Shown here in pieces: positions 6,199 through 31,592 of a stretch of 32,058 bases of DNA. The DNA comes from a virus, in IMG/VR virus record IMGVR_UViG_3300042353_000427, positions 1-32,058 of that record. One strand, 5' to 3'. The position numbers and the translations under genes are program-made. Within the stretch, counting starts at the first letter, position 1, and the number at the start of each line of letters is the position of its first letter. Below the pieces are notes generated by a model. That model was not told the origin of the DNA, searched no databases, and saw nothing but the letters and a program-made list of their open reading frames with translations.

Positions 6199-6220
6199 CA
6201 GTCTTGAGAGGACGATCATG
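6199..6220 (+). promoter_or_regulatory. Conserved translation leader, copy 3 (diverged)
   Basis: CAGTCTTGAGAGGACGATC followed by ATG matches the leaders at 2059 and 2438 over CAGT-x-TTGAGAGGAC, then diverges. The ribosome site GAGAGGA is unchanged. The pairing arms are shorter (GTC with GAC). Confidence 0.5.
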
Positions 6221-7000
6221 CAACGAAGTGACACTATCGGGGAGCTAGCGAAAGCGCTGGCGGCCGCAAACTTGGAAATCGTGAACCCTAGCCTTGACGC
6301 GGTGAACCCGCATTTCAAGAGCCGATACGCCAGCCTTGGCGCAATCATCAACGCCGTCCGTTTGCCGCTTGCCCGTCACGGGATCAGCGCCGTGCAGACG
6401 GTCAGCACCGATGGCGGGGCGGTTGGGGTGACGACCACCTTGCTCCATGCGAGCGGGGAATGGATGGCGGAGACGGCTATGTCTGCCCTACCTGACCGCG
6501 CTACGGTTCAGCAGTTGGGCTCGATAATTACGTACCTTCGCAGGTACTGTTTAGCCTCGGTGACCAACATAGTGGGGGAAGAGGATTCCGACGGGAACGA
6601 GGCAAGCTTGCCAAGCGCACCGCGTAGCGAGCCCCGTAAGCCCTTCAAGCCGCAAGACCCACGGACAGCCGTTCCGCCACCTCCGACCACTCCTAAGGCA
6701 ACCAAGCCCGCTCCTGAGCCTGTGGCAGAAGTCAAGGCGGCAACCAAGGCGCTTGACGCGTACCCGGACGTATACGAGGGGACATTCGACATCCTGCGCG
6801 TAGTCGTTCGTGACGGCAAGGCTCACGCCATTCAGGTGGACGGCCTGCACGGGAAAGCGTGGCTCGCCACAACCATACAAGAGTACGTCAACATGGCGAA
6901 AGAACACGTCAACGGCTGTATGCAGTTGCAGCTTGAGCGCGTCGGCGACACGCTCCAGATCATGAAGGTCATCGCATCCCAAAAGGAGATTCCGTTTTGA
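6218..7000 (+). CDS. erf: ERF-family single-strand annealing protein
   Basis: This 260-residue protein has an N-terminal ERF domain over roughly residues 5-130. It shows NPHFKSRYASLGAIINAV (the hallmark N-P-x-F-K-S-x-Y-A motif) and QQLGSIITYLRRYCL with GEEDSDGN, the family's G-x-x-x-T-Y-x-R-R-Y and acidic D-x-D-G-N. A proline-rich linker (about 145-170) leads to a C-terminal beta-rich domain of unknown type. ERF proteins anneal single strands for recombination and for circularisation or concatemer formation. It is coupled to the Gp157-like gene by TTGA and has its own promoter and strong ribosome site. Confidence 0.92.
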   Translation: MQRSDTIGELAKALAAANLEIVNPSLDAVNPHFKSRYASLGAIINAVRLPLARHGISAVQTVSTDGGAVGVTTTLLHASGEWMAETAMSALPDRATVQQLGSIITYLRRYCLASVTNIVGEEDSDGNEASLPSAPRSEPRKPFKPQDPRTAVPPPPTTPKATKPAPEPVAEVKAATKALDAYPDVYEGTFDILRVVVRDGKAHAIQVDGLHGKAWLATTIQEYVNMAKEHVNGCMQLQLERVGDTLQIMKVIASQKEIPF

Positions 7001-19742: not shown

Positions 19743-20777
19743 TCAGGCTGTGACGTTGGCGCACAGGAACCCAGAGACTGGAGCAACCAGTTCCGAGGTG
19801 CTGTTGTCAATGACGCGACCTTCAATACGGCGATCCTTCGGATCGTCCCAGTTCTCAACCGTCATATCTTCGAATGCGAAGATCTGGCAGGTGCTGAACG
19901 AGGTCGAACCTTCGACACCAATCAAGCCACCGGGGCGGCTCACGAAGATTGCCGAGTTGCCGTACACGAACGAACGAGTCGCCGAGGCTGCGCCCTTGCG
20001 GGTCGTAATCTTGACCGAGTCGTCAACGACAACCGAAACGCCGAACAGATTCGGCGGGAGGCCGTAACGGCTGAAGATGTCAGAGCCTTGCAAGAACGGC
20101 AAGGCGGCTGGGTAGTTCTTCACGTAGTCACGGATTTCGGCCGCCTGTGAGATGATGTTTGCAACGGTCGGACTAATGACCATGCAAATATCTTCGCTAC
20201 GAACCGCGCCACCAGTTGCGAGCGAGATGCGCTGGAGCGCGTCTTGGATACTTGCCTGAATGACGTTAGTGGACGAACTCGTCCAAACGCCCTTCCAAGC
20301 ACCAGCAGTAGCCTGATAGTTGCCTGCTGCGGTAAACGCCGTAACTGCTGCGGTGTTGGTCAGCGCGGTAGCCGTTCGCATGGAGCGAGCGGTCATAGCG
20401 AGCTGTGCCTTGCTGCGAGCGTGCTGGGCAACGATGTCCCACGCGGCTTGCTTAACCGTCTCGTTCGGAATGTAGAACGGGAAGGCGAAACGTTGCGCCG
20501 TGAAGGTAACGAAATCGTGCTGGTTCATCTTGCCGACCGGACGGTCATTGCCAAGAGGCCAGATAAATTCGTTAACGTCGGTCACGCGCACGTTGTCGTC
20601 CGAATCAAGACGCAGGTAATACCCCGTCTGTTGATTGCAGGCAACGATTTGAGCGTAACGGGTGATGGCAAACGAATTCACCGCACGGGTGAACTCAACT
20701 TGGAGAGCGCCAGTTGCGAGCGCGTTGGTGGAGGGGACGTAAGTGTTTAGACCGCCTCCGACTGTTACATAGGCCAT
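19743..20777 (-). CDS. Major capsid protein
   Basis: The protein is 344 residues. AAAGGAGG, the best ribosome site in the window, lies just before the ATG, as expected for the most abundant protein. The sequence has HK97-fold features: an N-terminal arm (VTVGGGLNTYVPSTNAL), helix-rich middle with WDIVAQHARSKAQLAMTARS, then IQASIQDALQRI, SPTVANIISQAAEIRDYV and a strand-rich end (FAFEDMTVENWDDPKD). Its position after protease-scaffold and decoration genes agrees. The N-terminal GGGLNTYVPST recurs in the protease-scaffold protein just before the internal scaffold start. Confidence 0.9.
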   Translation of the reverse strand: MAYVTVGGGLNTYVPSTNALATGALQVEFTRAVNSFAITRYAQIVACNQQTGYYLRLDSDDNVRVTDVNEFIWPLGNDRPVGKMNQHDFVTFTAQRFAFPFYIPNETVKQAAWDIVAQHARSKAQLAMTARSMRTATALTNTAAVTAFTAAGNYQATAGAWKGVWTSSSTNVIQASIQDALQRISLATGGAVRSEDICMVISPTVANIISQAAEIRDYVKNYPAALPFLQGSDIFSRYGLPPNLFGVSVVVDDSVKITTRKGAASATRSFVYGNSAIFVSRPGGLIGVEGSTSFSTCQIFAFEDMTVENWDDPKDRRIEGRVIDNSTSELVAPVSGFLCANVTA

Positions 20778-21234: not shown

Positions 21235-21849
21235 TTAGCCCTTCATCCGGGCGTTGATTGCCTTGGCAAACTCTTCAGGCTTGCCAGCAAATTGCTTGAC
21301 TAATGAGCCAACGTCACCAATATCCATGCCACGCGGCAGGGCTGCTCGGCTCATATCAATCTTGGTTCCGATTGGGTCGCGGGCGAACAGGTCGCGCCAT
21401 GACTCAAGGAGAGCAACTGGGTTACGGGAAGCCTGCAACTGACCAACAAGCGCCTCGCGCTGTGAGTCTGGGATGCGGTAGCCCTCCTGCTCCATGATCT
21501 CCACTTCGCGCTCAAACTTCTCGCGCTTCAACTCGGCTTCAAGACGGGCGAACCGCGACTTGAGGCGAGCGTTTTCTGACCGAAGAGCGTAGGTCGAACG
21601 ACGGCTGGCAATGACGGATTCGTCTTCCATGTCGTCCTCTTCGCCTGCCTCAACGTCATGGCTCTCGATGTCGATGTGGACTTGACCGTCTTCCTCGGCC
21701 ATCTCGTCCTTCATCTCATCGTCGTCCTCAGCCATCTCGTCCTTGTCGTCCGAGTTGTCCGCGAACTTCTTCTTCATCATGTCCGAGAGTTCGGAGATGG
21801 CGCACTTCATGGCCTCCAACTCCTCGCGCATATCGTCGCTGGATGCCAT
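21235..21849 (-). CDS. Internal-start scaffold protein (Z/Nu3-like)
   Basis: Inside the protease gene, in frame, ATG 21849 is preceded by AAGGAGGAGG at seven to nine bases, an excellent ribosome site. The product has 204 residues: MASSDDMREELEAMKCAI, an acidic D/E/M-rich stretch and a long coiled coil, with no protease domain. Lambda C/Nu3 and Mu I/Z use the same plan to make scaffold in excess over protease. Inferred from the ribosome site and domain edge. Confidence 0.78.
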   Translation of the reverse strand: MASSDDMREELEAMKCAISELSDMMKKKFADNSDDKDEMAEDDDEMKDEMAEEDGQVHIDIESHDVEAGEEDDMEDESVIASRRSTYALRSENARLKSRFARLEAELKREKFEREVEIMEQEGYRIPDSQREALVGQLQASRNPVALLESWRDLFARDPIGTKIDMSRAALPRGMDIGDVGSLVKQFAGKPEEFAKAINARMKG

Positions 21850-22731
21850 GCTGGCCTCCTCCTTGGTAGTCGTCGGGACAAAGGTATTGAGTCCACCGCC
21901 GACCCCGACGAGGTCATGGTTGGACTTTGAACAAGTGATCTTCTCGCCCTTGCGGGTGAAATGGGTGTCCGGGAGAGGGCGGCGCGGGGTTTCACGCCCG
22001 AGCAACGCCACCTCAGAGAGATGGTTTGAGCCTGACCAGATCTCAGCCGACCGACGCGGAAACGCGTTAGTAGCAATGAAGCGGTCGAAAATATCGCGGT
22101 TGACTTCCATGTCGCCCACAATGTACCCAATTCCATCGCGTTCTTCGTAGGAAATTGTGGGGAATCGACCGACAGCCGACTTCGGTTCCTTGCCGTCCTT
22201 CTCGTGCATGATGACGAGGCGAGGGAACGAACCGCGAGCCATGTGCTTGCGCGTACTAGCGACGATGTCCTTGAGGCGCTTGTTGTTGAAACGCTTCAGC
22301 TCCGGGTCATCCTCGCCATCTATGGTTGGGTCGAACGCCATGAACAGTTCGACGCGCTCAATCATGACCTTGTCGCCATCTTCGGCGACTGTGTGAGATG
22401 TCTTTGCGTTCACGGTCTTCTCCTCTTTGCGGTCGAGTTCCTTGTCTTTGCGCTCTGCCCATGCCTTGCCAGCATCCCCGCCCCACAGGAGCCACGCGAT
22501 ATACCCGGCGGAATCCTTGCCCCAGCCCTCGCCCTGCTTGTCAACCTCATGCCGAGCGAAGTAGGACACCATCCGGCGCACGGTTTCGGGTGACAGGTTT
22601 GCCCGGTTCTTGATGTCACGCGCCCGCGCTACGCCGATCTCCGTGCCACCCCTGCCGTGCTTCTCGCGCAGCTCAAGGCCGCGGGCAGCATTCGATGCCA
22701 TCTCGGTGGTTGGTTTGAGGTCTATTTCCAT
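21235..22731 (-). CDS. Capsid maturation protease-scaffold fusion (Mu I-like)
   Basis: This 498-residue protein starts at ATG 22731, five bases after the previous stop; the frame up to 22803 is rejected. The N-terminal domain (1-95) carries NAARGLELREKHGRGGTEIG and AWLLWGGDAGKAWAE, a motif common at the front of phage protease-scaffold proteins. A middle domain (about 115-265) with VELFMAFDPTIDGED, FPRLVIMHEKDGKEP and AFPRRSAEIW resembles Mu I-type proteases. A very acidic coiled-coil scaffold follows, then a basic helix (about 395-430) and ordered C-terminus. Cleavage would remove the scaffold after shell assembly. An internal start makes the scaffold alone. Confidence 0.82.
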   Translation of the reverse strand: MEIDLKPTTEMASNAARGLELREKHGRGGTEIGVARARDIKNRANLSPETVRRMVSYFARHEVDKQGEGWGKDSAGYIAWLLWGGDAGKAWAERKDKELDRKEEKTVNAKTSHTVAEDGDKVMIERVELFMAFDPTIDGEDDPELKRFNNKRLKDIVASTRKHMARGSFPRLVIMHEKDGKEPKSAVGRFPTISYEERDGIGYIVGDMEVNRDIFDRFIATNAFPRRSAEIWSGSNHLSEVALLGRETPRRPLPDTHFTRKGEKITCSKSNHDLVGVGGGLNTFVPTTTKEEASMASSDDMREELEAMKCAISELSDMMKKKFADNSDDKDEMAEDDDEMKDEMAEEDGQVHIDIESHDVEAGEEDDMEDESVIASRRSTYALRSENARLKSRFARLEAELKREKFEREVEIMEQEGYRIPDSQREALVGQLQASRNPVALLESWRDLFARDPIGTKIDMSRAALPRGMDIGDVGSLVKQFAGKPEEFAKAINARMKG

Positions 22732-22735
22732 GCGG

Positions 22736-23767
22736 TTAGACAATCGCAGACAGGTTGGTGGCGATTTCAGACGACCCAAGATCATTAGGGTGAATGCCGT
22801 CATAAAGCCGATTGGTGTTGTTTGTCATGATTGACAAACCATCAATGTAGAACGTGTTCGCGTCACCAGCAGCCAACTCAGCCGCTTGTACTGCGCTTCG
22901 GTACTGGGCAAGCGTGATCGTATTGGTGTTGGGTGAGTAAATCGGGGAGATCACATGAATGGCAGCAGAAGGCAATGCCGCTCGGGCGTTAGTAATCCAC
23001 CCCTGCACGCGGGTCTGGAATGTCACTAGCGGCGTTTGAGCGTAGAAATCGTTATAGCCAATCATGTAGGTCACAACATTGCAGCCCGTGCCAGTCAACC
23101 CATTTCCATCTGCTGCAACTGCTGTCTGACCACCGTTTGCCAAATTTACCAATTGCTTGTTTTCGGCAATGGCTAGAAGGTACGGCCATGACGTTGTGAC
23201 CTTTGAAGCTGCCGACCCTTGCGTAATGCTGTCCCCGCACGTTGCTATTTTGTTGGCTGGCCGTGACACCGTTGTCATGGTTGCGCCTGTGTTCAATTCA
23301 ATCTTTCTCAACTCAAATCCAACCCAATACGCCCAAACAATTGTCACCGTCTTGGAGCCAGCGGCAAGGCTAAGTTCAATTGTCACAATTCCGGTTTCGT
23401 TCCACGCTTGCTCCCATTTATACGTTTTGACTTCTACACCATCAACAAGAATTGCTCCTGTGCTGAGGTTGTTATTGGTGTCTCCGGTGAATCTCACAAG
23501 ATCATTGTGAAACATAGACACGCGCACGGAAGTAGCCGTTGTTGTGAACGACACACGGCTTCCCGGCGCTGCATTTTCAAAGTCATAACCGGGCGAAGAA
23601 ACTGGGCGAAGGAACCGAAGCGTGCTTGCCGACTGCTCCGCAATAGACGCGTAATCCGAGACGGTGAAGCTTGCCGAGTTCGGCAAGTATTGCGTCCATC
23701 CCGCTGCCGTCCCGCTTAATCCGGGGCGACGGAATCGTCTTATGGCGTTGGAGAGTCGGTTCCGCAT
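22736..23767 (-). CDS. SGNH/GDSL esterase with N-terminal jelly-roll domain
   Basis: This 343-residue protein has the blocks of an SGNH hydrolase: CGDSITQGS (Ser180 nucleophile), NLANGGQTA (block II glycine), IGYNDF (Asn239) and DGIHPNDLG (Asp323, His326). A beta-sandwich-like domain of about residues 35-165 (SVRVSMFHNDLVRF, GIVTIELSLAAGSKTVTIVW) stands in front, as in CE2-type carbohydrate deacetylases. It probably removes acetyl groups from host polysaccharide. It lies in the head module right after a spike-like protein and before the protease, not among tail genes. The first 18 residues are arginine-rich. Coupled by TAATG. Confidence 0.85.
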   Translation of the reverse strand: MRNRLSNAIRRFRRPGLSGTAAGWTQYLPNSASFTVSDYASIAEQSASTLRFLRPVSSPGYDFENAAPGSRVSFTTTATSVRVSMFHNDLVRFTGDTNNNLSTGAILVDGVEVKTYKWEQAWNETGIVTIELSLAAGSKTVTIVWAYWVGFELRKIELNTGATMTTVSRPANKIATCGDSITQGSAASKVTTSWPYLLAIAENKQLVNLANGGQTAVAADGNGLTGTGCNVVTYMIGYNDFYAQTPLVTFQTRVQGWITNARAALPSAAIHVISPIYSPNTNTITLAQYRSAVQAAELAAGDANTFYIDGLSIMTNNTNRLYDGIHPNDLGSSEIATNLSAIV

Positions 23768-24945
23768 TAGATGCTATACCACGCCGCGCCCATGTTGACT
23801 GTTCCGCTTCCAACTGTTGCCTTGAATTGCACTTGAACCAACTGAGATCCAACCGCGTCAACAAGGGCTGAAGCTGTTTCGGTCGCTGTGGCTGTTACCG
23901 TCGATGGGCGGTAAAGCGAAGCGTCTGGGCTGAGTGCCACCTGCGTGATGTTTGAGAAGACATACGAGGGGACATTGTTGACCGTCATAACAGCAACAGT
24001 TCCCGTGCTGTAAGCCAGCGTCAAGTCTGCCAAGACGGTTGGGAACCATGCGGTAACTGGCGGGACGGTTGTGTTCGTTGCCGTGACGGCCGCAGTAGTG
24101 GTAGCAAGGTACGGAGATGCCGATGTTCCCCATTCAACCTGACCGCCCCACACCACAACTCCCTTGGTGAGATCGGAAACATATGAACCTATACCCCAAT
24201 TGCCACCACCAACTCCCGGTGTTCCTGTTGGATTTGGAGATATCAAGAAATACTGTACTTGGCGGCAGGTAATAGCCACGCGATACCACAAAAGACCAGT
24301 ACCTGCAACGGGTGTGACCGTAGCGGTTGGCGTAGAAGTAAACCATGTTCCTGTGTTAATAAATTCAGTCTCTGTGATGGTTCCGGTATTCAAATCAATA
24401 GTGACCGCGTAATAGGGGCCACCCGAACCGTTGCCACAACTAACAGATGCGTATTGCCGACCCAGTCCACCTTTGACATAGACCGAATGCGTTCGGATAT
24501 CGGTAGATGCCCCGGGCGCACCTAAATCACGACCAATGAAATGTCCGACTGCGGCTCCTACGTTTGTTTCAAGAACATTATCTGCGGTTGTCGTTCCATC
24601 TGGCGCAACTGACGCATTGATAGAGCCACCAGTTACTGCAAGGTTAGACTTGATCCACGCAGCATTATCAAAATCTTGGCTGTAGGTGATGAGGTTCGTA
24701 TAGGTGACCGGAATCGGACACGGGTTCCAGCCAACCACGCGCATACCAACCCCAGTAGCGTTGTTCACGCTGCTCAATGGGGTGATCTTCAACAGGCTTG
24801 GGCATACGGCCGTTTCGAGGGTGTAAATGACCCCGGTCGTTGGCTTGGTGGTCGTAGGTGCAATTGATCCGTAACTTGCCGATGCAGCTGCGGGGGCAAG
24901 GAATTGCGACGCTGGTTGTGCAGTCGATAGAAATGATTGTGGCAT
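23767..24945 (-). CDS. Head-spike-like carbohydrate-binding protein
   Basis: The protein is 392 residues, with ribosome site GAGGAGAAC. Residues 80-285 match the layout of phage head spike/fibre domains: NLITYSQDFDNAAWIKSNL, SVAPDGTTTADNV, THSVYVKGG, then WYRVAITC and VVVWGGQVEWGTSASPYLAT, where the N-L-x-x-S-x-x-F and G-x-Q-x-E-x-G ... Y-x-x-T marks are diagnostic. These domains resemble carbohydrate-binding modules. A second beta domain follows. Placed directly before the esterase, it may hold that enzyme on the capsid or bind the same polysaccharide. Confidence 0.82.
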   Translation of the reverse strand: MPQSFLSTAQPASQFLAPAAASASYGSIAPTTTKPTTGVIYTLETAVCPSLLKITPLSSVNNATGVGMRVVGWNPCPIPVTYTNLITYSQDFDNAAWIKSNLAVTGGSINASVAPDGTTTADNVLETNVGAAVGHFIGRDLGAPGASTDIRTHSVYVKGGLGRQYASVSCGNGSGGPYYAVTIDLNTGTITETEFINTGTWFTSTPTATVTPVAGTGLLWYRVAITCRQVQYFLISPNPTGTPGVGGGNWGIGSYVSDLTKGVVVWGGQVEWGTSASPYLATTTAAVTATNTTVPPVTAWFPTVLADLTLAYSTGTVAVMTVNNVPSYVFSNITQVALSPDASLYRPSTVTATATETASALVDAVGSQLVQVQFKATVGSGTVNMGAAWYSI

Positions 24946-25851
24946 TTACAGTTCTCCTCTGCGCTTCATGTCGAGCGCGATTGCGACCGCTTGGTCTTGT
25001 GGCTTGCCTTCTTTGATGAGCTTGGCGATCTTCGCGCCGACGGCTGGGTCAGCGGCGGACATGATCTTCAGCCCTGCCTTCTGCTCCTCGGTCTGCTCGC
25101 GGGTCATGCGGGTCTTTGCGCCGGGGCGGGAGAACGTGCCCAAGTATTGAGCATCCAAGGTCATCCCTAAAGATTTTGCTCTATTCTGAAACTCTTTAAT
25201 TTCTTCCCGTGATTTTTTAATAGTAGCAATTGATTCCTTAATAACGCCGTTTTCCGAATCAAGGAGAAGGCTCAATTTTGCCTTTCTTTTGATATCACGC
25301 GTGTTATTTATTTGGGCGGTCAATTTCTGGATATTTGCTTTTGCTTCTTTTATATTGTCATTCCGATTGCCAATACGCCATATCGCCCCATGAATTCTGC
25401 CTTGAATTGACGCTTGATCGCGTTCCCCATAAGACGTTGCTGCTGGGCCGAATCCAAACTCTGCCTTCGCGCCAGAGCGGGCGAAGTTATAGTCATTTAA
25501 TCCTTCTATGGATTGACCAATTCCGGATGCCGCTTCATCAAAAACTGAACTGTACTCTTCAGCGTCAACATCGCCATTTACCGTTTGCGATTTTATTTTA
25601 GCCAGTTTCTTTGCCATCAAAGCCGTAAGTTCCTTCATTCCGGACATGGCATCGTTGTAATCCGATTCAATTCTCTTGAGTACCGCTACATTCTTTTTGG
25701 TCAATAGCGCCTTTTTGCGTACTGCTGCTGCTGCTTTGTCTTGGGCGACTTCCGCCTTGCGTGCAGGTGACCCCTTGAGTGGGGCTGGCCCCATTGCTGC
25801 AAATCCAAGACGGGCGGCGATTTCTTTGCCTGTGTTGCTCATGTTGTGCAT
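24946..25851 (-). CDS. Tagged coiled-coil cassette protein, short form
   Basis: This 301-residue protein starts at ATG 25851, with GGAG nine bases upstream; a start at 25866 lacks a ribosome site. Order: RLGFAAMG start motif; cassette B (MGPAPLKGSPARKAEVAQ); tag FARSGAKAEFGF; cassette A, a coiled coil with INNTRDIKRKAKLSLLLD and AKSLGMTLD; tag FSRPGAKTR; and a C-terminal domain ending IKEGKPQDQAVAIALDMKRR, a motif known from other phage hypothetical proteins. Cassette A is AT-rich while the tags and flanks are GC-rich. It is highly basic. Placed between MuF-like and spike genes, it may be an internal head or ejected protein; function unknown. Confidence 0.75.
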   Translation of the reverse strand: MHNMSNTGKEIAARLGFAAMGPAPLKGSPARKAEVAQDKAAAAVRKKALLTKKNVAVLKRIESDYNDAMSGMKELTALMAKKLAKIKSQTVNGDVDAEEYSSVFDEAASGIGQSIEGLNDYNFARSGAKAEFGFGPAATSYGERDQASIQGRIHGAIWRIGNRNDNIKEAKANIQKLTAQINNTRDIKRKAKLSLLLDSENGVIKESIATIKKSREEIKEFQNRAKSLGMTLDAQYLGTFSRPGAKTRMTREQTEEQKAGLKIMSAADPAVGAKIAKLIKEGKPQDQAVAIALDMKRRGEL

Positions 25852-25876
25852 CGTAGCGATCTCCATTGCGATTTAT

Positions 25877-26959
25877 TTATGCGTTTACGAAACCGGGGTC
25901 AGGAACTTGGCGCGTGTCCACTAGGCGCTGACGCGCTCCGTTGTGCTTGGCAATAGCGGCTGGGTCAATCGTCCCGTTCGGGCGCGTCCAACGCTCGCGC
26001 AACGCCTCGGCGGCCGGGACGGGAATAATCGCGCAACGGCACGCGAATCCCAATGGGGGTGAGATTCCGAGGCGGTCGAACTCTGCCATTGTGTTTACAT
26101 AGCCGTCAAAGGCGCGGTGTGTTGGGCGTGTCCGATTGTCCTTGGTGGCGCTGAACTGCACCAGCGGGACGAAAGCCTGTACCCGCTCATCCCGTAGGAC
26201 TTCGGCGCTGCCCTCGGTCATGGCGCGGTTGGTGTTCGTCCGCAGGACGGTTTCAAGGCGGGAGGACGTTAGCCCCGTCCCGGTCATGAGTTGGGCGGTC
26301 GTTACGAAGTCGCCAAGGTTCATGGTCTTGATGAGCTTGCCGACCACGCTCTTGGTCGGGCGCTCCTCGATGACCTGCGCGATCAGTTCCTGCACCATGC
26401 GCGTCTGGGCGGGGTTCATGGCGGTGACAAAGAAGGTGGTATCGACAATCCGCTTCACCCGGGAGATAGCGCCTTGCGGCCCCCGTGTAACACCGCGTAA
26501 CAACGAATCGAGAATCGGGGACTGCTTGCGGAGGTCGGGAAGGGCGTTTTCGCGCTCGTGATCGGTCACGTCCCCGGCGCTGGCGGCTGCTGCCTTGATG
26601 AGCAGCTCCCAGTCGGCGCGGGAGATTGGGACGCGCTTCCTGAACCAACCCGTGATCGGAGCCATCCATTTCGTTCCGAAGCCTTCAAGGGAGATCGGCA
26701 CGTCTCGGTCAAACTTGACCGCGTCCCCATCGTCCAGCATTCCTTCAATAGCCCCGTCCGGGATCTTGGCGGTGTCCACGGTGTCACGCGCCCCGAACAA
26801 CCACGATGCCATCAGGAGCGCCGCAGTCGCCTCGTGGAACTCTGCCCACGCCGCGAGGGCATCTTCGCCCCTGACCTGAGCCGCGACCGCACGGCGGTAC
26901 GCCTGCTGCGACTGGCGCAGGACTTTGCGGAGGTGCTTGTCGAGTTCGGCTTTGGTCAT
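25877..26959 (-). CDS. MuF-like minor head protein
   Basis: This 360-residue protein has an N-terminal helical domain (KHLRKVLRQSQQAYRRAVAA), then the phage Mu F/SPP1 gp7 region near the C-terminus: VLRTNTNRAMTEGSAEVLRD, KDNRTRPTHRAFDGYVN and FACRCAIIPV. R-T-x-x-x-x-A, D-x-R-T-R-x-x-H and C-x-C are the family's metal-site marks. A few copies are built into the head near the portal. It overlaps the portal gene as ATGA. After the C-x-C it ends with a short helical tail and no fused toxin domain. Confidence 0.9.
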   Translation of the reverse strand: MTKAELDKHLRKVLRQSQQAYRRAVAAQVRGEDALAAWAEFHEATAALLMASWLFGARDTVDTAKIPDGAIEGMLDDGDAVKFDRDVPISLEGFGTKWMAPITGWFRKRVPISRADWELLIKAAAASAGDVTDHERENALPDLRKQSPILDSLLRGVTRGPQGAISRVKRIVDTTFFVTAMNPAQTRMVQELIAQVIEERPTKSVVGKLIKTMNLGDFVTTAQLMTGTGLTSSRLETVLRTNTNRAMTEGSAEVLRDERVQAFVPLVQFSATKDNRTRPTHRAFDGYVNTMAEFDRLGISPPLGFACRCAIIPVPAAEALRERWTRPNGTIDPAAIAKHNGARQRLVDTRQVPDPGFVNA

Positions 26960-28449
26960 CGCTTGCGCTTGCGAACGGCGGCTACCTTCGGCGCTTCAGG
27001 GGCTGGCTCGTCGCCCTCGCTCTCGTTGCCCTGCCCGAGCATGGCTGAGAGCGGGTTGGATGATGCGCCCGCGCTGCCAGCGGCTTGACCACCAAGGACG
27101 GATTCCCCGTCTTCCGGGTCGGACAGACCGAGGAGGTCGCGGACTTCGCGCTCGCTGACGCGGCCACCCATTTGGATAAACGTCTGAATCGCTTCCAGCC
27201 GCTCCTTCGGGTTCGGGCGCTCCGGGGCGAAGACGAACCGGATGCGGCGTGCATCCTCTTCGGAGGCTCCGAGCATCCCGGCAATGATGCGGACGAGGTC
27301 GGTGGTCAGGCTCTCCGCAAGGCAATCCGCGTGATAGCGGATGACGCGAGAAAGGGTATCGGCGTGGAGGTCGGCAACGCCTGACCCCATACCCGTCCCG
27401 CCAGCCTCGCTAGAGAGCGACTGACCGAGGATCGCTTCCTTGAGTTTGCCAGAGAGCCAGTTGACCAACTCCATAAAGATCTGGGCGCGGCCACCGTTCG
27501 CGTCCTTGATGTCGATGTCGTACATGGACTCGGTCGGCGAAATGCGGGGCAGGACGACCGAGTTGTCATTGACCAAGTTCTGCAAGATGGTCATCATCTC
27601 GCTCTTGGCGGCATCGTTTCCTGCTGGGTAGTACCCAACGCGGATGCCGAGGGCGTACCGCTCCACATAGGCGGCGGCGTTCTGTAGGACTTCCTGCTTC
27701 AAGAGCCAGATGTACCAGCAGACATCTCGCGCCCCTACGCCACGGTAAACCGTCTCGGCGCTGTTCGGGTCGATGAAGTTTGGCGCGGTGGTGAAGACGC
27801 GGTGCAGGACGATGGCGCGACGTTCGTTATCGTCAAACAGGTGGACGAGGGAGTCAAAGCCGAGGTCGGTGACGGATGCCTGATTGATATAGGCGCTACC
27901 AACGCGCATCGCCACGTTCCCGGTCTGGTCAAAGGCGAGGGTGTCGGAGGCGAGCGGGAGCCATTCGCGGATGCGTACTCCAAGGCGCGGGTCGCGGTCG
28001 TAGACCACGTTCACGGCGCTGCACCCGTACCAGACGGCTTCGTGCAGGGAACGGAACATATCGCTACGGCGCGGGGCTGCGCCGATGATCTCGGCAATGC
28101 GGTCGGCGAGCTTGACGAGGCGGGGATCTGATTCGTCGTCGGAAAGTACGTTCCACTCCAACCCGGCAAGGGTCACGAGCAGGGAGCGCAGCACGCCCTC
28201 AATGTCCGCGTCTGCACGCATCATCGCCTGATAGTTCGGGTCGAGGCGGTAGGCGAGGCTGGAGTTCCGCAGCATCAGGCTGGCGGTTCGGAAGAACGTC
28301 CGCTGCACTTCCACGGGCATCGCGAGCGGCCCGGTTAGTCCACGATCAATCGGAGGCGGCAGCGGCTTGCGCGGTCGCTTGGTTGGTGGCAATCCTGCGC
28401 CGGGGATCGACTGACGTTGCGAGAGCGGGTTGTTGATCGGGTCGGGCAT
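26956..28449 (-). CDS. Portal protein, DUF935 (Mu gp29-like)
   Basis: This 497-residue protein has a DUF935 portal layout. It contains YQAMMRADADIEGVLRSLLV (about 74-93), the core MFRSLHEAVWYGCSAVNVVY, KQEVLQNAAAYVERYALGI, and the late motif LGQSLSSEAGGTGMGSGVAD with its histidine, then RFVFAPERPNPKERLEAIQT. The last 60 residues are low-complexity with a basic end. Twelve copies form the DNA channel at one vertex and dock the terminase. Together with MuF, DUF1320 and protease-scaffold genes it marks the head module as Mu-like. Confidence 0.92.
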   Translation of the reverse strand: MPDPINNPLSQRQSIPGAGLPPTKRPRKPLPPPIDRGLTGPLAMPVEVQRTFFRTASLMLRNSSLAYRLDPNYQAMMRADADIEGVLRSLLVTLAGLEWNVLSDDESDPRLVKLADRIAEIIGAAPRRSDMFRSLHEAVWYGCSAVNVVYDRDPRLGVRIREWLPLASDTLAFDQTGNVAMRVGSAYINQASVTDLGFDSLVHLFDDNERRAIVLHRVFTTAPNFIDPNSAETVYRGVGARDVCWYIWLLKQEVLQNAAAYVERYALGIRVGYYPAGNDAAKSEMMTILQNLVNDNSVVLPRISPTESMYDIDIKDANGGRAQIFMELVNWLSGKLKEAILGQSLSSEAGGTGMGSGVADLHADTLSRVIRYHADCLAESLTTDLVRIIAGMLGASEEDARRIRFVFAPERPNPKERLEAIQTFIQMGGRVSEREVRDLLGLSDPEDGESVLGGQAAGSAGASSNPLSAMLGQGNESEGDEPAPEAPKVAAVRKRKR

Positions 28450-28691
28450 CAGGATTTCTCGTATGCAAGGGCTTTGATTTGGTCTACCGTCATGCGCTTG
28501 ACAACGCCGTTCGGCTGCTTCACTTCGTAGGACGTAGCAAAGGCTGGCGGGTTGGTCTGCCCACTGCGGAAGTCAAGCGTATACCCAATGCGCTTGAGCG
28601 CCGCTTCGGCTTGATCGATGGTCAGCTTGCGCTTGCTTGTCGGCAGGGCGAAGATGCCCAGTCGGCGCATGATGTCCTTGCGTTGGCTCAC
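28449..28691 (-). CDS. Small protein with RLG-F-A start motif, before the portal
   Basis: This 80-residue protein starts at GTG 28691 inside GTGA with the cassette protein gene; its stop overlaps the portal ATG (TGATG). It begins MSQRKDIMRRLGIFALP, resembling the starts of the two cassette proteins (MSKQDIEKRLGFAAQG; MSNTGKEIAARLGFAAMG). The rest is a small alpha-beta domain (IDQAEAALKRIGYTLDF, YEVKQPNGVVKRMTVDQIKA). No family recognised. The common start suggests that the three proteins share a partner or location in the particle. Confidence 0.72.
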   Translation of the reverse strand: MSQRKDIMRRLGIFALPTSKRKLTIDQAEAALKRIGYTLDFRSGQTNPPAFATSYEVKQPNGVVKRMTVDQIKALAYEKS

Positions 28692-30085
28692 GCCTTCGCC
28701 TTCGCGCCTGTACGGGAGAAGCCGGGACGTACATCGTCGTGCGCGTTTGCTACTTGGGTTTCCATACCAAGCTTCGCGGCGTACTGCATTAGTTGCTCAA
28801 ACTCCGCCCGGGTAATGTCCACCTCTTTACCCATCTTCTTGGCAAGGGCAATGATGCTCTTCTTTGCGAGGTCGGGCTGGCTTGGAATCTGTTTAGCAAG
28901 GGAAGAGAAATCCGTATCAAAGCGGGCAAACTTCGCTTTCACGCCGGGGCGGGAGGCTTGCAAGGTCATCCCTAATTTCCGCGCTCTCTTTTCCAACTCA
29001 ATGATCTCTCTCGCTGTTTCTTTAAAAGCAGCCTCCGCTTCTCTATCAGCTGCCCTTTCCTTCTCTAGAAGCCGTAGGAGTTTGGCCTTCTTTTTCATAT
29101 CAGGCGTGGTATAGGTTTCTGTATTTAACTTATATATTCTTGGAGTTGCAGCTTTAAGATAGTCCGCCAGTTCCCTATAACGCGGCCGCAAAGTATTCAG
29201 CTTGCGTTGAATTGTCGCCTTCTCTTTATCGATAGCAGCGGCGCGTGCGGCTGCGCGTGCAACTGCTGCTGCCTTCTCTTCGGCGATTTCTTCCTTGCGG
29301 GCGGGCGAACCCCTGAGTGGGGCTGGCCCGATTGCTGCAAAGTCTGCCTTCACGCCAGAGCGGGCAAACGGGGACTTCGATGCGCCAAGGATCATGGACT
29401 GGGACTTGACGGCGATCCGCAGCTGCTCAACGTAATGCTCAATGTCCTTCGCGCTGGTCGCGGAGTTGATGACCTTGATGGCGTTGGTGACATACGCGTC
29501 GAGCGCGGCGAGCCGCTCCTTGACCTTGTCGCGCATAAACTTGTAGTTGGTGATTGCGTCCTTGGCTGCGGCCTTTGCCTCGGCGACTTGCTTGCGGTAC
29601 TCCGGCGACTTGGGATCAGCCGGGTCGGCGGTCAGCGCGGTAGCCGCGTAGCCAACGCGAGACAAGAACCCCATCTCTGCCTTCGCACCGGGGCGGGCAA
29701 AGTTACCTGCCCATTTAGGGTCTAATGTAATCCCTAGGGATTTTGCGTCAGCCTGATTTTCTTGAATACTCTGCCGCGCTCGTCGGAGATAAAGAACCTG
29801 ATCCTTCATTCTCTTATTTTCAACATCAAGTTTCAGGCTTAACTTTGCCTTCCTTTTGATATCACGCGTGTTGTTTATTTCGGCGGTCAATCTTTGGATT
29901 TCTTCCTTTATAAATCTCATATTGGAATTGAGATTGCGCATCTCCCCCGCCTCATACCGAATGTTGGTTTCGATTCTTCGTTGATTTTCCTTCATCTCAG
30001 ACGGGGAAAGTCCACCTGAAACAAACTCCGCCTTCACGCCTTGCGCCGCGAATCCCAAACGCTTCTCGATGTCTTGCTTGCTCAT
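28688..30085 (-). CDS. Tagged coiled-coil cassette protein, long form
   Basis: This 465-residue protein starts at ATG 30085 with AAAGGAAC upstream. Tags of the type A/S-R-P/S/T-G-A/V-K occur near 29686 (FARPGAKAEMGF), 29354 (FARSGVKADFA), 28943 (SRPGVKAKFA) and 28705 (FSRTGAKAKA at the very end), plus a related AAQGVKAEF near 30040. Between them are coiled-coil cassettes. Cassette A (INNTRDIKRKAKLSLKLD ... AKSLGITLD) and B (IGPAPLRGSPARKEEIAE) match those in 24946-25851; a second, diverged A lies before the third tag. Very rich in K, R, A and E. It lies between the large terminase and the portal, an unusual place. Function unknown; an internal head or ejected protein is possible. Confidence 0.75.
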   Translation of the reverse strand: MSKQDIEKRLGFAAQGVKAEFVSGGLSPSEMKENQRRIETNIRYEAGEMRNLNSNMRFIKEEIQRLTAEINNTRDIKRKAKLSLKLDVENKRMKDQVLYLRRARQSIQENQADAKSLGITLDPKWAGNFARPGAKAEMGFLSRVGYAATALTADPADPKSPEYRKQVAEAKAAAKDAITNYKFMRDKVKERLAALDAYVTNAIKVINSATSAKDIEHYVEQLRIAVKSQSMILGASKSPFARSGVKADFAAIGPAPLRGSPARKEEIAEEKAAAVARAAARAAAIDKEKATIQRKLNTLRPRYRELADYLKAATPRIYKLNTETYTTPDMKKKAKLLRLLEKERAADREAEAAFKETAREIIELEKRARKLGMTLQASRPGVKAKFARFDTDFSSLAKQIPSQPDLAKKSIIALAKKMGKEVDITRAEFEQLMQYAAKLGMETQVANAHDDVRPGFSRTGAKAKA

Positions 30086-30125: not shown

Positions 30126-31592
30126 TCAACCGAACATTCTGCGCTTGACTGCGCGAGAATCGAACATCCTGCTTGTGTCGGTCGCCACGGTGACCGCGCC
30201 GCCCGATGTCACTACCGTCCCGCTCGACGCTGCGGTGCAGAGGTCAACGATGCAGTCCACCGTATCGTCGTGACTGCCAGCGGGGAACGCCAGCATTTCG
30301 TCAAGGGTGGAGCGGAAGTCGGCGTGGACTTGCCCGTCATGGTTCTGCGGAAACAAGAGCTTCCCCTGCTCAACGAACGGCTGGGCGGCGGCGGCTCGTA
30401 AATGCTTGTCGGCGGTACGGGTGACGGCAATGACGGGCTGGTGGCAGTCTTGGCGGAATTGGTCGAATACGCCCTTCTGCGGCCCGTTCGCTTCCGCCAG
30501 CACCATGCCCACGCCACGGCGCTCAACGAGGTCTTTCGCCATGCGGGCGAAGTCGGGGAACGACTCGCGGACGCGGAGGATGTCGGTCAGGTACAGGTTG
30601 CGGGCTTGGTCAACCTCGCCCACGATACAGACCGAGTAGTCGGGGTCGTCGCGCTCTTGGCGCTTCTTTCCGTAGCCCCAGTCGATGGCGGCGACCGTGC
30701 GCGTGCCGAGGGGAACCGTCCCGGAGCGGTAGTACCGCGTCCATTCCGGTCGGAAGATCAGGAGGTCGGAGGACAGCGGAACGAGTTCGTAGGCGCGGGC
30801 ATACGCCATCGGCCCCATCTCGCGGCGCTTCTGGTCGAGGATCTCAGGCGTGAACACGCTCGGCCACGGGCTAATCAGTCCCCGGCAAGGCTCGCGCAAG
30901 AGCGTGCCAGCGCGTTCGCATTCGCGTCTCCAGTCGGCGGTAATGTCGTCCGTATGGAAGGGGGTCGCGGTGCGCCAGATGCGGGCGGGGTGCTTGGCGG
31001 ACGGGTCAAGCATGGGGAGCCAGATGTTGTTCATCGCCTCCTTGACCTGTGCGCGGAGAGTCGGCTGGAGGACGGCGTTACGTAGGTCGCAGATGTCATC
31101 CGGCCAAAGAACATCGGCGCGTCCGCCCGTGCGCCCGAAGATGCCGGAGGCTTGAACGGACGGGTCACGCCTCGCCCCTACCCCGGGCGCGGTGATCGAC
31201 CACGCCATGACGGTGTCCTCCCCGGGCTTGAGTTCAATGTGCGGGAAGGTGGCGCGGTAAATGGGGCTGCGGATGATGTCACGCAGGAAGCGGGATGTGG
31301 CGCTTGCAGCTTCGTCGTTCTGCCCGATCAGCTTAAACCGTGTCGCTGGGCGGCGACCAAGCCACCACGCGGCTAAATATGTAAGGCTGCTGGTCTTCGC
31401 GTGACCACGTGGGATTTCCCCGTACCAACTGTGATGCTTCAGCGCGTGCGCGATCAGCCTGCGCTGAAGGTCGGAGGCGGGCTTGCCGAGGCACAAGGCT
31501 AAGAAGGCAACCGGGTTCTCCCGCGCTGCGGCGACCGCTTGCTCCGGAGTCAGGCTTTGCGCTTTGGTTTTCGCTTTGGCTTTGGAAGGCAC
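30126..31592 (-). CDS. terL: Terminase large subunit
   Basis: This 488-residue protein has ATPase motifs PRGHAKTS (Walker A variant, residues 61-68), ADVLWPDD (Walker B, 159-166) and RTATPFH (coupling motif near 208). The nuclease domain has AAIDWGYGKK (Asp304), VLAEANGP (Glu368) and GSHDDTVD (aspartates near 442). All are in the family's order, so it should be active in cutting and pumping DNA into the prohead. The lysine-rich N-terminus overlaps the small subunit gene by 43 bases. The gene is followed by the cassette protein, not directly by the portal. Confidence 0.95.
   Translation of the reverse strand: MPSKAKAKTKAQSLTPEQAVAAARENPVAFLALCLGKPASDLQRRLIAHALKHHSWYGEIPRGHAKTSSLTYLAAWWLGRRPATRFKLIGQNDEAASATSRFLRDIIRSPIYRATFPHIELKPGEDTVMAWSITAPGVGARRDPSVQASGIFGRTGGRADVLWPDDICDLRNAVLQPTLRAQVKEAMNNIWLPMLDPSAKHPARIWRTATPFHTDDITADWRRECERAGTLLREPCRGLISPWPSVFTPEILDQKRREMGPMAYARAYELVPLSSDLLIFRPEWTRYYRSGTVPLGTRTVAAIDWGYGKKRQERDDPDYSVCIVGEVDQARNLYLTDILRVRESFPDFARMAKDLVERRGVGMVLAEANGPQKGVFDQFRQDCHQPVIAVTRTADKHLRAAAAQPFVEQGKLLFPQNHDGQVHADFRSTLDEMLAFPAGSHDDTVDCIVDLCTAASSGTVVTSGGAVTVATDTSRMFDSRAVKRRMFG

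Follow-up and report, generated by a model that had tools for sequence, protein, structure and literature searches.

In integrons, an open-ended pool of cassettes is gained, lost and reshuffled at a short repeated DNA element, and empty sites occur. In the T4-type mobile regulatory cassettes and polymorphic loci of T-even phages, short repeats flanking the modules mediate shuffling, and the units are whole small genes. Here, we describe arrays of protein cassettes found in one group of uncultivated phages and in a 32,058-nucleotide stretch of viral DNA (IMG/VR record IMGVR_UViG_3300042353_000427, positions 1 to 32,058; hereafter the window), where a long protein (L) and a short one (S) are built of cassettes divided by a repeated short tag. 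As in integrons, cassettes are gained and lost at a repeated site; unlike in integrons, however, each cassette is read in frame as part of a single protein, the repeat belongs to the coding sequence, and an integrase was not found in 19 long contigs of the group. The T-even loci, in turn, shuffle whole small genes, whereas the arrays shuffle the domains of one protein.

The internal proteins IPI-III of phage T4 carry a capsid targeting sequence and are packaged and ejected, and Ip1-3 inhibit GmrSD restriction enzymes (PMC9026906, PMC12373910). As portrayed in the passages of these papers used here, they are, like the arrays, small, poorly conserved and basic, with a short common N-terminal signal. 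The array counterpart is a short conserved N-terminal stretch common to otherwise unlike proteins, for which a capsid targeting function is putative. However, the T4 proteins are encoded by separate genes with one body each, whereas one array gene holds up to nine bodies and the tag serves as DNA joint; moreover, packaging is reported for the T4 proteins and putative for the arrays. No homology of L to known IP proteins was found in Pfam, PHROGs, PDB sequences or INPHARED. Polyvalent proteins, which combine many unlike domains in one polypeptide, are encoded near virion genes and are thought to be injected with the DNA (Iyer et al. 2017, PMC5512222), resemble the arrays in both the unlike domains of the chain and the place of the gene. 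Their domains, however, have recognisable activities, and the sections of that paper used here describe neither a tag nor a cassette exchange among near-identical phages. Several recognisable enzymatic or effector domains per chain were not found in the arrays when representatives of all 147 cassette families were compared with Pfam. Among the matches listed by Foldseek were two 'large polyvalent protein associated' entries (E 0.04 and 0.17), which, obtained with a low-confidence model of L, do not support such a kinship. Domain exchange is also a feature of the ongoing shuffling of phage protein fragments, a mosaicism linked to host interaction, and tag-joined arrays are not described in the part of that work used here (PMC10684548). 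In the open-access PMC literature searched, the tag letters RPGAKA, SRPGAK and ARPGAK were absent, and no description of tag-joined arrays was found among the matches listed.

L is encoded at 28688..30085 (minus strand, as are all window features below unless stated otherwise), most likely from an ATG at 30085, with AAAGGA upstream, to 28688 (465 aa). It lies between the genes of the terminase large subunit (TerL; 30126..31592) and the portal protein (Portal_Mu; 26956..28449) and consists of an N-terminal signal, four cassettes and a C-terminal tag. The signal, MSKQDIEKRLGFAAQGVK (30032..30085), overlaps at its end a weak first tag, FAAQGVKAEFV (30020..30052), and is followed in turn by cassette 1 (29702..30031), the tag FARPGAKAEMG (29669..29701), cassette 2 (29369..29680), the tag FARSGVKADFA (29336..29368), cassette 3 (28958..29347), the tag ASRPGVKAKFA (28925..28957), cassette 4 (28721..28936) and the terminal tag FSRTGAKAKA with the stop codon (28688..28720). 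S (24946..25842) lies behind the gene of the MuF-like head protein (25877..26959; TerL, portal and MuF were all assigned by Pfam and PHROG); its open reading frame (ORF) spans 24946-25866 (306 aa), and its relatives are conserved from the ATG at 25842 (298 aa). Its signal, MSNTGKEIAARLGFAA (25795..25842), leads into cassette 1 (25486..25794), the tag FARSGAKAEFG (25453..25485), cassette 2 (25135..25464), the tag FSRPGAKTRMT (25102..25134) and a conserved C-terminal domain (24949..25113) with a partial phrog_2423 match (E 9.3e-9, residues 272-303 of the 306-aa ORF).

Much of this had been outlined in an earlier note on the same DNA. Both ORFs are present where the note had placed them, the repeats that it named were recovered mechanically, and its count of six tags plus a weaker one agrees with ours (four in L, two in S, and FAAQGVKAEFV in L). 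Its cassette A, said to occur once in S and twice in L, was recovered as a single cluster, family 13 (L cassettes 1 and 3, S cassette 2), and its cassette B string, GPAPL[RK]GSPARK, is present in both proteins: it opens S cassette 1 (GPAPLKGSPARK) and starts L cassette 3, ahead of a diverged A. The description of the A cassettes as AT-rich suits the two clear copies (GC 0.43 in L cassette 1, 0.41 in S cassette 2) but not the diverged third (0.51); L cassettes 2 (family 2, 18 members in the set) and 4 (family 4, 11 members) have a GC content of 0.62 and 0.53, and the portal and MuF genes 0.63. Similarly, 'coiled coil' is fair for L, whose AlphaFold model shows helices only, at low confidence (pLDDT 63), but other cassettes in the arrays seem, on visual inspection, to be alpha/beta. 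A profile match of the whole protein to a known non-modular family was obtained for neither L nor S, at E values of up to 1 in Pfam and PHROG.

Is this architecture confined to the window? Scans of IMG/VR returned 31 stretches with L, 31 with S, 87 with a 31-base tag pattern and, with an alignment of S proteins, the best 80 of 159; the 198 loci fetched (designated by codes of the type L081) overlap and fall into 105 groups when one exact 2000-mer in common is taken to mean the same genome. A tag profile gave 508 matches scoring 10 bits or more in the ORFs of these loci against 3 in the same ORFs shuffled; since the loci were mostly fetched by the family itself, this count shows that the tags are non-random, not how frequent they are across phages. 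There were 126 unique ORFs with at least two strong tags, or 124 distinct array ORFs once fragments were removed. Cut at the tags, they yielded 400 internal cassettes (median 78 aa, 59-133 aa in the 5-95% range) in 147 families defined at 30% identity and 70% length, with a Chao1 estimate of ~243 families; five clustering settings gave 138 to 239 families and the same picture. Complete arrays (n = 105) hold 1 to 9 internal cassettes, mostly 1-6, with a mean of 3.4. Different neighbours (at least two contexts) were found for 71 of the 73 multi-member families, 34 of the 73 occur in both array slots, and 231 of 272 adjacent cassette pairs are distinct. The two slots lie among the head genes: slot 1 between TerL and portal, slot 2 between MuF and the genes of the likely protease and the capsid protein, and among the loci showing flanking genes only L198 has an odd order. 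The general order is TerS-TerL-[p126]-[array 1]-[p80]-portal-MuF-[array 2]-tail-like-GDSL-522-aa protein-decoration-major capsid protein, with some members absent in some phages, and the 124 arrays divide into 37 in slot 1 and 87 in slot 2.

The tag is conserved as DNA as well as protein, as the earlier note had observed. Aligning 475 distinct copies revealed a 32-base element, with conservation near background just past both edges, whose majority bases are TTCTCCCGCCCCGGCGCGAAGGCGAAG, then TTT or ATG, then GC. Its core codons are nearly fixed (Ser TCC 275/327, Arg CGC 404/453, Pro CCC 344/377, Gly GGC 451/477, Ala GCG 336/386), compared with shares of 19, 40, 25, 46 and 31%, respectively, for the same residues elsewhere in the arrays. 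All 993 in-array DNA matches are in coding sense and frame (overlapping loci counted). The consensus is unchanged in L072 and L146, two loci with portals only ~40% identical to those of the main group, and in L077 and L139, which have cassettes in common with L072. Outside the counted arrays there were 45 matches, 27 of them at the ends of arrays, in cut arrays or in short genes resembling arrays. The other 18 comprise weak matches of 14-19 bits (in the 522-aa family of seven loci at 15.3 bits, in two portals at 16-18 bits, and in seven cases elsewhere) and the single ones in L145 and L148. Shuffled loci gave 6 matches at the same threshold.

Cassettes are exchanged at this element, as the earlier note had supposed, and three lines of evidence display the exchange directly. 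Firstly, of 871 internal ends of homology blocks (at least 90% identity; pairs not independent), 78% lie inside a tag and 87% no more than 10 nt from one, versus 29% and 42% for random positions. Since left ends cluster in bases 0-5 of the tag and right ends in bases 18-35, the block that moves is tag-cassette-tag. Secondly, the arrays of L137 and L120 are 99.7% identical across 947 nt comprising three cassettes, split inside the tag at 922-954 and rejoin in the last 166 nt. Thirdly, L081 and L107 contain an empty frame of signal, one tag and C-terminal domain, and in L088 the same frame, located between TerL and portal with flanks closely matching those of L081 and L107, is filled with one cassette.

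The turnover is fast. The 58 genome groups in which both the portal and a complete array are present include 30 same-slot pairs with a portal identity of at least 97%. No cassette is common to the two members in 19 of them, and the mean Jaccard index is 0.12. Cassette order, which the earlier note had proposed as a test of reshuffling, is the same in only one of the 30, so that the idea of cassettes traded at the tags is supported. MuF identity amounts to 95.3-98.2% in 16 of these pairs, and in 13 of those 16 TerL is 94.8-98.7% identical, partly over part of the gene. The cassettes nevertheless keep their sequence: dN/dS is 0.14 (264 equal-length cassette pairs, 70-98.5% identical) versus 0.07 in 116 portal pairs, and median pN/pS is 0.16 over 51 families. 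As judged from these ratios, the cassettes are working proteins under purifying selection. Selfish filler DNA was considered as well and dropped, as the dN/dS of 0.14 speaks against it.

Many of the otherwise unlike arrays begin in a similar way. The pattern [DEK][ILV]xxRLG[FIMS] was found in 208 ORFs (overlapping loci counted): 146 arrays, 26 copies of p126, 20 of p80 and 16 others. Three of these 16 (L068, L112, L113) are encoded between TerL and portal, and ten belong to a type that overlaps or adjoins the start of array 2 in L085 and L007; of the remaining three, one is the cut array of L002 and two are one doubtful ORF in two loci. A strict pattern is present in 80 of 116 unique array ORFs. 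The window's p80, an 80-aa basic protein (28449..28691), begins with an array-type stretch (RKDIMRRLGIFA), and single-cassette genes outside the slots start similarly at L121:2696-3391 and L128:1653-2024 (minus strand). A phrog_2859 module starts some relatives' arrays and also the window's 522-aa protein. With frames read from the first Met, array pI has a median of 9.8 (9.3-10.2 in 5-95%); medians are 10.2 for p80, 9.6 for p126, 7.1 for TerL, and 5.1-6.2 for the portal, 522-aa, major capsid, tail-like, decoration-like, adaptor-like and tube proteins. As a separate observation, p126 is a basic protein of 122-126 aa with an array-type N-terminal stretch and a cysteine-rich end, encoded between TerL and array 1 in L003, L005, L010, L017, L026, L027, L030 and L031.

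A few cassettes also have stand-alone relatives encoded by small genes: RcPeripeteia_88 (37% identity, E 7e-5, the match beginning 19 codons upstream of the annotated start), Milano_093 (40%) and RHph_Y21 EVC16_121 (42%), all three located in runs of small unknown ORFs, and, within the phage group itself, L023:2392-2736.

Based on these findings, we consider it probable that the arrays are basic virion proteins of modular build, which have an N-terminal signal in common and trade their cassettes through annealing recombination at the tag; the cassettes would act in the host after ejection. The short signal (about R-x-x-I-x-x-R-L-G-F-A) would bring L and S into the prohead core; behind it would follow a string of independent domains, the cassettes, linked by a flexible tag of 11 residues, the 32-base DNA of which would double as recombination joint. 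When related phage DNAs meet in one cell, ERF or RecT could pair the tags of different arrays, and whole cassettes would be gained, lost or exchanged in frame. The cassettes may be host-acting accessory proteins, i.e. anti-defence or takeover factors, which would be ejected with the DNA, and an arms race with the host would select for their fast turnover. We read L and S as internal, ejected proteins by analogy with T4, because a common N-terminal signal is found on unlike proteins. Of the roles proposed in the earlier note, the high pI, the common N-terminal stretch and the slots among head genes favour internal or ejected proteins over a surface function. Through such swapping, virus particles could perhaps carry new sets of helper proteins. 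More tentatively, we think it nearly as likely as not that this is a counterpart of the integron at the level of protein domains: through a coding tag, the phages of one group would have access to a common stock of several hundred ready-made effector domains, which they would join in a single virion protein and deliver together with the genome. If so, one locus would list some 150-250 small phage proteins preserved by selection for a part in or around infection, nearly all of unknown function, and would offer a natural joint at which domains can be added in frame to a protein carried in the virion. It would further link annealing recombination, modular evolution and protein delivery by phages, which are usually seen apart, and would open two questions to testing: why phages differ although their portal genes are nearly the same, and whether the sets of cassettes follow the defences of the hosts.

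Several observations weigh against this interpretation. The signal is not universal: of the 36 of 116 array ORFs that fail the strict pattern, 13 carry by eye a close variant and 6 a phrog_2859 start, and the rest, including those of L072, L077, L139 and L146, start unclearly or without signal. A basic pI is not peculiar to the arrays, the medians of MuF and GDSL being 9.2 and 8.5. Only a few of the 147 families have known stand-alone relatives, and no cassette has a known activity; matches in Pfam, PHROG and PADLOC are few and mostly weak. Some 13% of the homology ends tested are over 10 nt away from any tag; by inspection of the list, most of these are left ends that precede the end of the array by roughly 120-200 nt, where the conserved C-terminal domain lies. 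Change also extends beyond the arrays: the tail-like gene adjoining slot 2 aligns over its full length in 3 of the 7 near-identical pairs in which both copies were found and only over short stretches in the other 4, so this gene varies too. Finally, 2 of the 19 long contigs have neither ERF nor RecT.

Could the tag instead be a cutting site, at which a prohead or host protease would chop the array into small proteins in the head or in the cell? Such a polyprotein is the alternative that fares best, and we regard it as unlikely. In the model of L, each of the five tags falls within or overlaps a stretch with pLDDT <50 (9-25, 127-155, 228-264, 376-387 and 459-465; a further one, 173-188, has no tag), and these stretches are presumably flexible; the existence of small-gene relatives for some cassettes and the way in which the signal of L runs into a tag variant would fit as well. 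However, other head genes carry the tag DNA only as the weak matches in the 522-aa family and the portals, and we know of no protease with the tag motif. The same model, although weak, is in line with the tags acting as hinges. It was used, together with that of the S protein of L041 (pLDDT 53.5), only for secondary structure and linker position.

It is improbable, in our judgement, that the arrays are a filler that condenses DNA or shapes the head, made of interchangeable basic spacers whose identity hardly matters. The high pI of the arrays and the mostly helical low-confidence models of L and of the L041 S protein would suit such a role, but the charge of the cassettes is only mildly positive (median +0.036 per residue), single-cassette arrays and an empty slot 1 exist, and the families, not detectably related at the thresholds used, each keep their own sequence, as the pN/pS above indicates. 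Pure DNA condensation, one of the roles suggested earlier, leaves unexplained why many unrelated families each stay under purifying selection. Equally improbable is an exchangeable surface module for capsid decoration or host recognition, diversified by recombination in the manner of modular tail fibres. Near-identical phages typically differ in their host-range genes, as they do in the arrays with their fast turnover. Slot 2 adjoins the variable tail-like protein and the GDSL esterase, and weak matches of single cassettes were obtained in Pfam with a tail tip domain of phages (E 0.009) and in PHROG with a tape measure family (E 9e-4); however, no other tail, fibre or receptor-binding family is among the matches listed, the arrays are basic, cysteine-poor and mostly helical, and their N-terminal stretch is also found on two small basic proteins, p80 and p126.

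For swapping by annealing recombination, the window offers a candidate enzyme, an ERF single-strand annealing protein (6218..7000, plus strand). ERF is encoded in 15 of the 19 long contigs, including the window, and RecT in two of the other four, i.e. an annealing recombinase in 17 of 19. Rad52-like recombinases, including Erf of phage D3, recombine diverged DNA, as stated in the part of the source used here (PMC3945230), and we infer that ERF or RecT is the swapping agent. An integron-like arrangement, with a site-specific recombinase or nuclease dedicated to the tag, is improbable: the 32-nt element does have sharp edges, a fixed orientation and the same consensus in the distant L072 and L146, but tag sequences vary, annealing recombinases are encoded in 17 of the 19 contigs, and none of these contigs has a tyrosine-recombinase integrase (PF00589; positive in 14 of 14 control genomes), a resolvase above cut-off (one match lies below) or a reverse transcriptase (PF00078). 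An unknown or host enzyme may still act on the tag. Two candidate systems were dropped on the same searches, namely an integron with its integrase, PF00589 being found in 0 of 19 contigs, and a diversity-generating retroelement, there being no reverse transcriptase in these contigs (template and variable repeats were not searched for).

How far do related sequences extend? A comparison of L with 50,697 named phage records yielded no relative at E 0.01, and terminase and portal match those of named phages only at 22-28% identity among the matches listed. Of the 124 arrays, seven were searched against INPHARED: the window's L, L176 and L012 had no match, L066 matched, among the 12 of 73 matches listed, only through its phrog_2859-type module, and L059, L128 and L194 matched through single cassettes, the phrog_2859-type module or short motifs. 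The C-terminal domain of S gave insignificant matches only (E 0.3-0.9), in Caulobacter phages. PDB sequences contained no match at E <= 0.01 for L or the array of L059, and a Foldseek comparison of the L model with viral models yielded nothing at E <= 0.001. In Pfam, the cassette representatives matched 17 families at E <= 0.01, with one member each; the best match was DUF7678 (1.4e-15), all others being 7e-5 or worse. A tag scan of the GTDB genome collection returned four stretches, with an array only in L146, a 6.5-kb contig of a Nitrospiraceae metagenome-assembled genome; the other three have one pattern match each and were taken as chance.

Some further features deserve mention. Directly before the array of L146, a relative of cassette family 20 is located near the start of a 367-aa ORF (L146:2808-3908), probably MuF, and this is perhaps a cassette fused to MuF. 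A short motif of the CWEGYEAVGTKKKDGKTVPNCVPK type, matched also in cyanophage hypothetical proteins, forms a cassette of its own in the long array of L059 (cassette 7) and recurs in other ORFs (L072:6161-6979, L077:1-480, L139:1799-2635, L178:1-594). In the window, a tail-like protein and a GDSL esterase (22736-24945) lie amid the head genes, as if belonging to the head surface. They are followed by the 522-aa protein (21235..22803), in our own reading, with no family match, a likely protease or scaffold, whose N-terminus is the phrog_2859 module. This protein and the likely major capsid protein (19743-20777) have in common the string GGGLNT[FY]VP[TS]T, which may be a motif for binding or processing shared by the two.

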